From positions 1 to 64,000 of the forward strand of contig NZ_JADQTO010000027.1 in the NCBI RefSeq assembly GCF_015704865.1: DNA of 64,000 nt, written 5' to 3'. The notes under the pieces are model-generated. The model did no database searches. It worked only from the letters and a program-made list of their open reading frames with translations, and had not been told where the DNA came from. Both the position numbers and the translations under genes were made by a program. Source of the DNA: Actinoplanes aureus. Its GTDB lineage: Bacteria > Actinomycetota > Actinomycetes > Mycobacteriales > Micromonosporaceae. Below are positions 12,016-21,212 of the stretch, piece after piece; the stretch's first letter is position 1; each line of letters begins with the position of its first letter.

Positions 12016-13317
12016 TTGACGACCGCTCTGACGCACCGGTCCGCGACGGCCGTACCGCCGCGGACCGGTGCGCTGCGGCGCGTCGGGCAGCTGCGCCAGT
12101 CGTCGCCGGGCCGGCTTCAGCTCATCCGCGCCGCCCTGGTCACGCTCGCCGTCCTGACCGGCCTGATCGCCGGGCTGACCGCCGCCTCCGCCACGGCCGG
12201 CACCAGCGACCTTCGCGACCGGGCCCAGCCGCTGCTGGTCGAGGCGGAGACGATCTACTCGGCGCTCGCCGACGCGGACACCACGGCGGCGCAGGCGTTC
12301 CTGGCCGGCGGCCTGGAGCCGGTCCGGCTGACCGAGCGCTACGAGGCCGACCTGGCCCGGGCCACCACCTCACTGGCCTCGGCCGCCCGGCTCACTCCCG
12401 AGGGCAGTGCGGCCTCGCGGGCGGTCGAGGCGCTGGCCACCGGCACCACGCGGTACGCGGCACTGGTCGCCACCGCCCGCGCGGTCAACCGCCAGGGCCT
12501 GCCGGTCGGCGCCTCCTACCTGGCCACCGCCTCGCAGCTCAACCGCGAGACCCTGCAACCGGAGGCGAAAGCGCTGTTCCAGCTCGCCCGCAAAGAGGTC
12601 GACAGCGGGTATTCGGCGGCGCGCAGCTCATGGTGGCTGATGCTGCTGCTGACCGTGTTCGTGCTCCTGACGATCATGCTGATCTGGTCCCAGCTCTACC
12701 TGAGCCGCACCACGAACCGCACCTTCAACGTGCCGCTGGTGGCCGCGACCGGTCTCGCCGCGCTGCTGATGCTCACCTCGGGCTTCGTCTTCTCCGGCCA
12801 GCGCGACATGCTGAGCACCGCCGACCAGGACGGCTCGGCCCCGGTGGCGGCCCTCGCCGAGAGCCGGATCCTGCTGCTGCGCGAGCGCGCCGACGAGGCG
12901 CTCACCCTGGCCGCGCGGGCCGGCAACGGGCCGCACGAGAAGGACTTCCAGGCGACCCGGGAGCAGCTCACCTTCGACGACGAGAGCCTCGACGGGTTCG
13001 AGTGGAACCTGCGGGAGATCCGCGAGCAGCACCAGGTGTACCTCGACCTGCACGAGAAGGTCCGCGAGCTGGACGACGGCGGGGACTACGACGGCGCGGT
13101 GAAGCTGGCTGTCGGGGAGGGGGCCACGACCGCGTTCGAGAACGTTCTCGACTCCGTCGACAACCTCCTCGACGACCGCAAGCACACCTTCGACGAGCAC
13201 ATCCGCGAGGCGGGTTCCGGCCTCGGGACGCTGACCTGGCTGGGCCCGCTGCTGGCCCTCGCCATCGGGGTGCTCGCGGTGTTCGGGCTGCGCGCCCGGC
13301 TGGAGGAGTACCGGTGA
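12016..13317 (+). CDS. glnX: GlnX-like membrane sensor protein
   Basis: 433 residues from TTG 12016, chosen for GGAGG at 12005-12009. Four transmembrane helices lie near residues 37-60, 205-226, 237-260 and 405-427, giving two extracytoplasmic helical loops (about 60-204 and 262-404) and almost no cytoplasmic domain. In mycobacteria the equivalent gene (Rv0412c) encodes GlnX, which interacts with the lipoprotein GlnH and relays amino-acid availability to PknG. Order, length and topology match here. The stop overlaps glnH by one base. Assignment rests on synteny and topology rather than a catalytic motif. Confidence 0.78.
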   Translation: MTTALTHRSATAVPPRTGALRRVGQLRQSSPGRLQLIRAALVTLAVLTGLIAGLTAASATAGTSDLRDRAQPLLVEAETIYSALADADTTAAQAFLAGGLEPVRLTERYEADLARATTSLASAARLTPEGSAASRAVEALATGTTRYAALVATARAVNRQGLPVGASYLATASQLNRETLQPEAKALFQLARKEVDSGYSAARSSWWLMLLLTVFVLLTIMLIWSQLYLSRTTNRTFNVPLVAATGLAALLMLTSGFVFSGQRDMLSTADQDGSAPVAALAESRILLLRERADEALTLAARAGNGPHEKDFQATREQLTFDDESLDGFEWNLREIREQHQVYLDLHEKVRELDDGGDYDGAVKLAVGEGATTAFENVLDSVDNLLDDRKHTFDEHIREAGSGLGTLTWLGPLLALAIGVLAVFGLRARLEEYR

Positions 13318-14246
13318 TGCGTATCCGTCCCGCCCTCGCCGTCATCGCCCTGCTCGCCGTCGCCGGCTGCACCGCCGAGACGCCGGCTCCGGTGGAGGCA
13401 CCCGCGGCCACGCCCGCCAGCACGGCGCCGGCCGCCGCACCGGATACCTCGTGCAAACCGCGGGCCAGCCTGCGCCCCACCGGAACCCTGCCGGCGCCCG
13501 GCCGGATGCCGGCCGGCAGCCACATGGCGACGATCGTCAACAACGGCCGGCTGGTCCTCGGCACCAGCCAGGACACCCTGCTGTTCAGCTCCCGCAACCC
13601 GTTCACCGGCAAGGTGGAGGGCTTCGACGTGGACATGGGCCGGCAGATCGCCCAGGCGATCTTCGGCGATCCGGAGAAACTCCAGATCCGGGTGGTCCCG
13701 CGCGCGGAGCGCACCGCCTGGGTCCGGGACGGCAAGGTCGACCTGGTGATCAGCACGATGACGGCGAACTGCGCCCGGTGGAAGGAGGTCGACTTCTCCA
13801 CCACGTACTTCGTGACCGGTCAGAAGGTCCTCGTCGGCACGGGCTCGACAGCCAAGAGCATCGAGGACCTGGGCGGGGAGAAGGTCTGCGCCGCGGTCGG
13901 CTCCACCTCCCTGGACAACATCGCGAAGGTGCGGACCAAGCCGATCCCGGTGGGCAAGGCCAGTTTCGGCGAGTGCCTGGTCGCCTTCCAGCAGAACGAG
14001 GTGGCGGCCATCTCGACCGACGACACGATCCTGGCCGGTCTGGCCGCCCAGGACCCGTACGCCGAGGTGGTCGGGCCACGCTTCACCGAGGAGCCGTACG
14101 GCATGGCCATCTCCAAGGAGCATCCGGAGTTCACCCGCTTCGTGAACGCGGTGCTGGAGAACAACCGGAGGAACGGCACCTGGGCGGCGACCTACGACAA
14201 GTGGCTGGGCACCGCCCCACAGCCACCGGCGGCCCAGTACCGATGA
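13317..14246 (+). CDS. glnH: GlnH-like amino-acid-binding lipoprotein
   Basis: 309 residues. Signal peptide with lipobox AVAGC (lipidated Cys18), a Pro/Ala/Thr-rich tether (about 19-60), then a bacterial solute-binding family 3 domain: RLVLGTSQDTLLFSS, VEGFDVDMGRQIAQAIFG, RTAWVRDGKVDLVISTMTA, R.KEVDFSTTYF, GEKVCAAVGSTS, and EEPYGMAISKEHPE. These are the usual binding-cleft strands for Glu/Asp/Gln. No permease or ABC gene is nearby, so it should sense rather than import. This fits the mycobacterial GlnH-GlnX-PknG model. It overlaps both neighbours. Confidence 0.9.
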   Translation: MRIRPALAVIALLAVAGCTAETPAPVEAPAATPASTAPAAAPDTSCKPRASLRPTGTLPAPGRMPAGSHMATIVNNGRLVLGTSQDTLLFSSRNPFTGKVEGFDVDMGRQIAQAIFGDPEKLQIRVVPRAERTAWVRDGKVDLVISTMTANCARWKEVDFSTTYFVTGQKVLVGTGSTAKSIEDLGGEKVCAAVGSTSLDNIAKVRTKPIPVGKASFGECLVAFQQNEVAAISTDDTILAGLAAQDPYAEVVGPRFTEEPYGMAISKEHPEFTRFVNAVLENNRRNGTWAATYDKWLGTAPQPPAAQYR

Positions 14247-20550: not shown

Positions 20551-21212
20551 ACGCGTACCTCTGCCCGAAGGGCCACGCCTCGGCGGAGAGCGACTTCTGC
20601 GACACCTGCGGCGCGCGCATCGACGATGCCACCGCCGTGCTCACGCCGCAGCAGCAGCCGCCGGAGAAGCCGGCCGAGACCGGCCCCTCCTGCCCGCACT
20701 GCGGCACGCCCCGCAGCGGCACCGCCCGGTTCTGCGAGGACTGCGGGTTCGACCACAGCACCGGCCGGATACCGCAGCTCACCATGCCGATGGCCGGGCC
20801 GCCGGCCGGTGAGTGGACGGCCACGGTGTTCGCCGACCGGGCCTACTTCGACCTGAACGAGACCGAGGGCGTCGACTTTCCGGTGGACTCGCCTCCGCGT
20901 ACCGTCACGTTGCCTCCGCCGCAGGTGCGGATCGGCCGCAGGAGCGCCTCCAAGGGCACCGACCCGGAGCTCGACCTCTCCGCCGCCCCGGCGGATCCCG
21001 GGGTCTCACACAGCCATGCGCTGCTCACGCTGAACATCGACGGCGTGTGGCTGGTCTCCGATCTGGGCTCGACCAACGGCACCTACATCAACGACGAGGA
21101 CCGGCCGCTGGGTGCCGGCCAGTCCCGTACGTTGAAGGACGGCGACCAGGTGCACGTGGGCGTCTGGACCACCATCACGCTGCACGCGCCGGATCAGGGC
21201 GCCCAGACGTAG
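20547..21212 (+). CDS. zinc-ribbon FHA-domain protein
   Basis: 221 residues from GTG 20547. Two zinc ribbons lead (CPKGHASAESDFCDTCGARI and CPHCGTPRSGTARFCEDCGF). The FHA domain follows at about 125-218, with the phosphothreonine-binding residues visible: VRIGRRSASKG, GVSHSHALL and DLGSTNGTYIN. It should read a phosphorylated Thr on a partner, as GarA does for mycobacterial PknG, but it has no N-terminal ETT phosphosite like GarA. Last gene of the operon; its end overlaps the convergent protease gene by 19 bp. Confidence 0.9.
   Translation: MNAYLCPKGHASAESDFCDTCGARIDDATAVLTPQQQPPEKPAETGPSCPHCGTPRSGTARFCEDCGFDHSTGRIPQLTMPMAGPPAGEWTATVFADRAYFDLNETEGVDFPVDSPPRTVTLPPPQVRIGRRSASKGTDPELDLSAAPADPGVSHSHALLTLNIDGVWLVSDLGSTNGTYINDEDRPLGAGQSRTLKDGDQVHVGVWTTITLHAPDQGAQT

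Follow-up and report, generated by a model that had tools for sequence, protein, structure and literature searches.

The stretch of DNA analysed here (hereafter the window) comprises 64,000 nucleotides of Actinoplanes aureus, positions 1 to 64,000 of the forward strand of contig NZ_JADQTO010000027.1 (assembly GCF_015704865.1). Between positions 12016 and 21212 it carries seven plus-strand open reading frames (ORFs), arranged head-to-tail in the order glnX, glnH, a coiled-coil protein gene, pknG, and the genes for a PP2C phosphatase, a VWA protein and an FHA protein. Their coordinates agree with the original prediction of a compact seven-gene layout: the junctions are, in order, overlaps of 1, 4, 4 and 4 bp, a 10-bp gap between the PP2C and VWA genes (19275–19284) and a further 4-bp overlap, making five overlaps and one gap. 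Because the genes are so tightly packed, their co-expression is very likely. The features, with the match or evidence for each, are the following.

12005..12009, +, Shine-Dalgarno sequence GGAGG of glnX, which has a TTG start at 12016 (sequence)
12016..13317, +, glnX, GlnX-family membrane signal transducer, 433 aa (NF058618, 366 bits, cut-off 250)
13317..14246, +, glnH, amino-acid-binding lipoprotein, 309 aa (SBP_bac_3)
14243..15421, +, coiled-coil/all-helical protein, 392 aa, with a conserved C-terminal ELRGRLDAYRAKA...APCDL block (conserved blocks)
15418..17718, +, pknG, Ser/Thr kinase, 766 aa, with two N-terminal ribbons, rubredoxin, kinase and TPR domains (PknG_rubred, Pkinase and PknG_TPR)
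15424..15615, +, two N-terminal Cys4 ribbons of PknG, GTIEDGYCDTCGLAP twice (sequence)
15730..15948, +, rubredoxin domain of PknG with two CxxCG knuckles (PF16919, 116 bits)
16825..17709, +, TPR domain of PknG (PF16918, 222.7 bits)
17715..19274, +, PP2C phosphatase with an N-terminal double zinc ribbon and a long Ala/Glu/Pro-rich insert (PP2C)
17754..17921, +, double zinc ribbon of PP2C (DZR, 22 bits, under the Pfam cut-off; Cys conserved in the alignment)
19285..20550, +, VWA protein, 421 aa, ArnB-like three-domain architecture (VWA_3 and VWA_3_C)
20377..20517, +, VWA_3_C domain (Pfam match; always next to pknG in the phylum sample)
20491..20535, +, VWA tail DEMALDTRSTKTVRV, residues 403–417, with Thr414 at 20524–20526, the proposed phospho-switch (alignment)
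20547..21212, +, FHA protein, 221 aa, two zinc ribbons and a C-terminal FHA domain, an ArnA-like layout (FHA and double zinc ribbons)
20562..20747, +, two zinc ribbons of the FHA protein (Zn_Ribbon_1 and DZR)
20925..21161, +, FHA domain (PF00498, 53 bits)

Sensor, kinase, phosphatase and reader

GlnX exceeds the cut-off of its family model and falls under that of the narrower mycobacterial equivalog NF041460 (113 of 780 bits). The best match of GlnH in the PDB is the Mycobacterium tuberculosis protein (6h2t, E = 2.5e-67). With the ligand contacts taken from published work (PMC6069109; residues in M. tuberculosis numbering), R147, T162, R169 and D250 are kept, S164 is replaced by threonine and W232 by phenylalanine. 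R147 is present in 169 of 172 aligned rows, and the position of W232 is variable outside Mycobacteriaceae, being Q, W, F or Y. Since the contacts are mostly kept and the W232 position varies, an acidic amino acid is a likely, not a certain, ligand.

PknG aligns with M. tuberculosis PknG (2pzi) from the rubredoxin through the TPR domain, with an E value of 1.5e-146. The original prediction had given it two ribbons plus one more; the two N-terminal ribbons stand, and the third is the known rubredoxin domain rather than an extra ribbon. It had further proposed that PknG, the phosphatase and the FHA protein carry related ribbons and therefore assemble together. All three do bear Cys-rich double ribbons, so the likeness holds in kind. 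It does not extend to close homology: when the host genome was searched with the PknG ribbon pair, only PknG itself rose above noise, and the PP2C and FHA ribbons were not returned. A specific common origin was thus rejected. The ribbons are of a generic double type, and the assembly deduced from their special relatedness is not supported; docking through them is nevertheless plausible by analogy with ArnA, which is discussed below.

The catalytic residues of the phosphatase and the binding residues of the FHA protein are intact. In PP2C, the metal-binding residues D102, D119, D453 and D500 are present in 167–168 of 168 rows. In the FHA domain, R131, S154 and N177, which bind the phosphate-bearing ligand, each occur in 160 of 161 rows, and H157 in 157 of 161. 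Between the catalytic motifs of PP2C lies a low-complexity Ala/Glu/Pro/Thr insert (window 18100–18700) with repeated ELAAAEQKTT-like units, for which the alignment shows no conservation. The coiled-coil protein has no family match in the profile library searches. Its AlphaFold2 (AF2) model is all-helical, with a predicted local distance difference test score (pLDDT) of 94.7, and foldseek returned no significant fold match, the top hit by probability being EzrA (4uy3; probability 0.84, E = 0.5).

The VWA protein and its C-terminal tail

The VWA protein has the architecture of archaeal ArnB, i.e., a vWA domain with a metal-ion-dependent adhesion site (MIDAS), a beta-sandwich and a helical bundle, as seen in the AF2 model (pLDDT 93) and its foldseek matches. 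The MIDAS residues D47, S49, S51, T121 and D149 are invariant in the alignment. The model superposes over its full length on PDB 4fx5, with a template modelling (TM) score of 0.94 and 48% identity (sequence E = 2e-111). The next matches are ArnB in the ArnAB complex (8s05, TM 0.70), the paralogue vWA2 and Sec23/24, with 5a8j at TM 0.61. At a threshold of 1e-5, the sequence search returned solely 4fx5, and no ArnB sequence homology was detectable. 4fx5 is a structural-genomics VWA from Catenulispora acidiphila (Caci_2163), the sequence of which includes an STKTVR tail, and it appears to be an orthologue of the operon's VWA. Two papers on the Arn system already term 4fx5 a structural orthologue of ArnB (PMC6509490, PMC12852372); the passages found in them contain nothing on the genomic setting of 4fx5 or of the actinobacterial VWA, and one of the papers places such ArnB-like proteins mostly outside multi-phosphorylation processes (PMC12852372).

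In loci that also bear the FHA gene, the VWA protein ends in D-E-M-x-L-D-T-R-S-T-K-T-V-R-V or a close variant. Among FHA-positive rows thinned to less than 80% identity (n = 60), position 414 is threonine, never serine, in all 60, and its +3 position is V, I, L or M in 45 of the 58 motif-bearing rows, compared with 20% for all threonines in these proteins. A pT-x-x-hydrophobic sequence is among the known preferences of FHA domains, and the tail threonine with its hydrophobic +3 residue is the best-conserved FHA-type ligand found. A strict tail motif, S[TVQR]xT[VTIASM][RPA][VITLMA], separated the discovery loci completely (60 of 60 FHA-positive against 0 of 17 FHA-negative). It proved overfitted, with 14 misses among the 91 held-out FHA-positive loci, and was replaced by the relaxed form S[TVQR]xT, which is present in 149 of 151 FHA-positive and 5 of 27 FHA-negative loci overall; eight held-out loci that were FHA-negative and tail-positive had been set aside, their contigs ending near the VWA gene. 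A VWA protein with a C-terminal zinc ribbon of its own is found in 19 of 27 FHA-negative loci and in none of the 151 FHA-positive ones.

Distribution, descent and surroundings of the gene set

In a phylum sample of 246 genomes, VWA_3_C occurs in nine, and in all nine it lies within ~4 kb of a PknG TPR match. Among the genomes with strong PknG matches, the ten outside family f2 all have the VWA protein (nine by Pfam, and G123 by inspection of locus L282), and none of the eight f2 genomes has it; f2 is taken to be Mycobacteriaceae, partly from its PknG_TPR scores of 490–520 bits and from kinship. The scan found at least 577 encoded relatives. Among 100 loci from sampled genomes, all or nearly all seven genes stand together in families f1, f12, f18, f19, f20, f28, f43 and f79, and in one extra copy in an f2 genome. 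The carriers include Actinoplanes, Streptomyces, Kitasatospora, Saccharothrix, Kibdelosporangium, Actinoallomurus and Nocardia niigatensis, and further Acidimicrobiia metagenome-assembled genomes (MAGs) and one Solirubrobacteraceae MAG. Across these loci the five-gene block from the coiled-coil gene through pknG, PP2C and VWA to FHA stays joined, and glnX-glnH precedes it, follows it (f18) or is inverted (L151). Reduced loci also occur: those of f2 and f3 are down to glnX-glnH-pknG, and a few others retain PP2C and/or FHA but no VWA. Since the gene set recurs across families, it reflects more than chance. The view that writer, eraser and reader form one unit with GlnX and GlnH is therefore upheld, in a conserved and widespread form; far from being limited to pknG, glnH and glnX, co-occurrence of the full set extends to at least eight GTDB families.

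Two further arrangements were seen. An f2 genome of genus code g3, to which the typical f2 three-gene loci also belong, has a complete seven-gene locus, L149 (G283:C144), besides its usual three-gene operon, L148. There is also a divergent second system of PknG, VWA and GlnX, sometimes with GlnH and the coiled-coil protein, and without PP2C or FHA (L108, L119, L121, L130, L150, L152–L162, L252, L256, L258, L260 and L262). The VWA of this system often ends in its own zinc ribbon where the Thr tail would otherwise be, and the rubredoxin domain of its PknG often shows a single CxxC knuckle, not two.

A PknG tree of 80 rows was built by a quick method and drawn with a midpoint root, the root itself not being inferred. 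The three-gene PknGs of f2 fall into a single clade (100*) with L149 and L193 (Pseudonocardiales) next to it; this clade is nested within the large set of seven-gene loci, and three-gene architectures emerge at several places in the tree. Both facts favour repeated loss of the extra genes, and the mycobacterial operon known from earlier work seems to be a pared-down version of the larger one. In most of the actinobacteria examined, the PknG operon also encodes a phosphatase and an ArnA/ArnB-like switch pair.

The nearest relatives are from Actinoplanes/Paractinoplanes. Directly upstream of glnX, on the same strand, lies an AMP-binding gene of the acyl-CoA ligase type (10373–11938), preceded by a minus-strand gene for an EAL-HDOD signalling protein (9042–10370). 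For the operon itself, neither a sigma-70-like promoter nor a terminator exceeding the shuffled expectation was found.

Proposed pathway, alternatives and known systems

The ArnA-ArnB switch of Sulfolobus (PMC6509490, PMC12852372, PMC7472852) offers a model for the second half of the operon. There, the zinc finger of ArnA docks loosely on ArnB. The kinase ArnC then phosphorylates a C-terminal threonine of ArnB, upon which the FHA domain of ArnA binds tightly, and PP2A opposes the change. The state of the switch follows nutrients, and the pair controls swimming in these archaea.

We propose that the operon is a full-length GlnX-GlnH-PknG amino-acid-sensing pathway with its own phosphatase and an ArnA/ArnB-like output switch, a reading to which we assign a probability of about 0.58. 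An extracellular acidic amino acid would be bound by GlnH and its presence signalled through GlnX to PknG, the route established in Mycobacterium and Corynebacterium. PknG would phosphorylate Thr414 of the VWA tail, perhaps also Thr412 and Thr409. The ribbon-FHA protein, docked on the VWA protein through its ribbons, would bind phospho-Thr414 (pT-x-x-V/I) by its FHA domain and so turn a loose complex into a tight one, as in ArnA-ArnB; PP2C would reverse the phosphorylation and the binding. The switched complex would then act on some target, and the helical coiled-coil protein may serve as an adaptor that links PknG or GlnX to the VWA-FHA complex. The host genome also encodes a canonical GarA/OdhI elsewhere; this classical PknG output probably exists alongside that of the operon, as a second one. 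The gene set, its conservation, the intact active and binding sites, the ArnB-type architecture and the FHA-linked Thr tail are direct observations. As to the biochemical steps, we infer those of the sensing half from published work in relatives and those of the VWA-FHA half by analogy. The original prediction had cast the VWA protein as a possible hub, and this gains support from its ArnB-type build and its FHA-linked Thr tail. New beyond that prediction are the canonical GarA/OdhI of the host, the ArnB-like structure of the VWA protein with its solved orthologue, and the nested position of the three-gene mycobacterial form.

Several facts weigh against this proposal. The strict tail motif was weaker in the held-out loci (77 of 91 FHA-positive, 1 of 9 untruncated FHA-negative), the relaxed one occurs in 4 of the 9 held-out FHA-negative loci, and the tail persists in two VWA loci without FHA (L248 and L250). 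It might instead have a structural role, as it is present in the 4fx5 construct and Thr414 is retained in 14 of 27 FHA-negative rows. In a VWA tree built without the tail, its association with FHA comes down mostly to one deep split, with ~5 changes; thus, we regard the association as suggestive, not as proof. Independent-contrast tests could not reach significance with the 4–5 pairs available. The similarity between the VWA protein and ArnB is structural only, at 13% identity by structure, and given this and the undetected sequence homology we say that the VWA protein "works like" ArnB, not that it "is" ArnB. In ArnB, moreover, the phospho-threonines lie inside the helical bundle and not in a tail after it, and mutations of single identified phospho-sites left motility unaffected. 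W232 of GlnH is not conserved, and ligand specificity may differ. Finally, GarA/OdhI, the proven substrate of PknG, is also present in the host genome.

This last point opens the way to one alternative, namely that PknG here serves the ordinary GarA/OdhI pathway and that the PP2C, VWA and FHA genes are co-transcribed passengers with separate functions. The host protein is canonical (NF041660, 208 bits, cut-off 200) and encoded elsewhere, beside gcvH-like and ftsR-like ORFs, and GlnX, GlnH and PknG are all close to the characterised system. We consider this unlikely, since the five-gene block stays joined in distant families even where glnX-glnH has been moved or inverted, and in the phylum sample VWA_3_C never occurs away from pknG. 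The N-terminal region of the host GarA/OdhI (L163, G000:C55:138421-138807) contains TSTLNL. That of M. tuberculosis GarA has ETTSVF, and the PknG site may differ in the Actinoplanes lineage.

Slightly less improbable, in our estimate, is that the VWA and FHA proteins scaffold or regulate PknG itself. Here the FHA domain would bind autophosphorylated PknG or GlnX, the ribbons would hold kinase, phosphatase and reader together, and the VWA tail would be structural rather than a substrate. Ribbons are indeed found on PknG, PP2C and FHA throughout the seven-gene loci, and on VWA where FHA is missing, and phospho-threonine in the N-terminal region of PknG is reported to stabilise the binding of an FHA substrate (PMC9769921). 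However, PknG's ribbon shows no specific relationship to those of the other proteins, and the invariant tail threonine offers a better-conserved FHA-type ligand than any other found. By far the least probable is a conflict or defence module of the TerY-P or GAP1-N2 kinase-PP2C-vWA type. Such triads with zinc ribbons are known from actinobacterial GAP1-N2 systems (PMC7159879), but the VWA, FHA and GlnX/GlnH proteins have no PADLOC match, PknG matches generic defence-kinase models only, the linkage to GlnX/GlnH is consistent, and the VWA protein is ArnB-like.

Beyond the proposed pathway, we tentatively raise an evolutionary possibility, at somewhat less than even odds. The ancestral output of PknG may have been not GarA but an ArnA/ArnB-like VWA-FHA switch, in which PknG phosphorylates the VWA-tail threonine, FHA reads it and PP2C erases it. 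Mycobacteria and corynebacteria would then have lost the module and kept sensor and kinase acting on GarA, and bacteria and archaea would share a nutrient-controlled zinc finger-FHA/vWA switch.

The extended form of the known pathway is real and conserved, and apparently undescribed: as the original prediction had supposed, no description of the unit was found in open-licence papers, STRING and subscription journals lying outside the search. Most work on PknG concerns Mycobacterium and Corynebacterium, whose operons bring together no more than the sensor and the kinase. Should the seven-gene arrangement prove to be the general one, the eraser and the reader dedicated to this pathway have so far escaped study in Streptomyces, Actinoplanes and their relatives, among them antibiotic producers. 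The proposed pathway supplies a named, testable phosphosite, gives the hitherto orphan crystal structure 4fx5 a place in a pathway, and suggests that the design of an archaeal phospho-switch has a counterpart in bacteria.

Four known systems bear comparison. In the PpkA-PppA-Fha cascade of type VI secretion systems (T6SS), a kinase, a PP2C and an FHA protein encoded in one locus form a threonine-phosphorylation switch. The operon resembles it in having these three in one locus, but contains no T6SS genes, and its FHA protein scores 32.1 bits against the TagH model, below the cut-off of 120.25. The TerY-P/GAP1-N2 triads (PMC7159879) link kinase, PP2C and vWA with a zinc ribbon on the kinase, as here, but neither GlnX/GlnH nor a PknG TPR domain is reported there. 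The GlnX-GlnH-PknG system of Mycobacterium and Corynebacterium (PMC6069109, PMC9769921, PMC8546545) has the orthologous proteins, with rubredoxin, kinase and TPR domains in PknG, in one operon, and canonical GarA/OdhI is shared with the Actinoplanes genome. It differs in that none of the four extra genes (coiled-coil, ribbon-PP2C, ArnB-like VWA and ribbon-FHA) is found in the mycobacterial operon, whose PknG also has no N-terminal ribbons. Lastly, the operon and the ArnA-ArnB system (kinase ArnC/ArnD, phosphatase PP2A) both pair a zinc finger-FHA protein with a vWA/beta-sandwich/helical-bundle protein, and have in common a Hanks-type kinase, a dedicated phosphatase, C-terminal Thr sites (putative ones in the operon's VWA protein) and, probably, nutrient control. 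The phosphatase is PP2C in the operon and PP2A in Sulfolobus, the conserved threonine of the operon's VWA protein lies in a tail after the bundle, unlike that of ArnB, and the operon alone is linked to a solute-binding-protein sensor.

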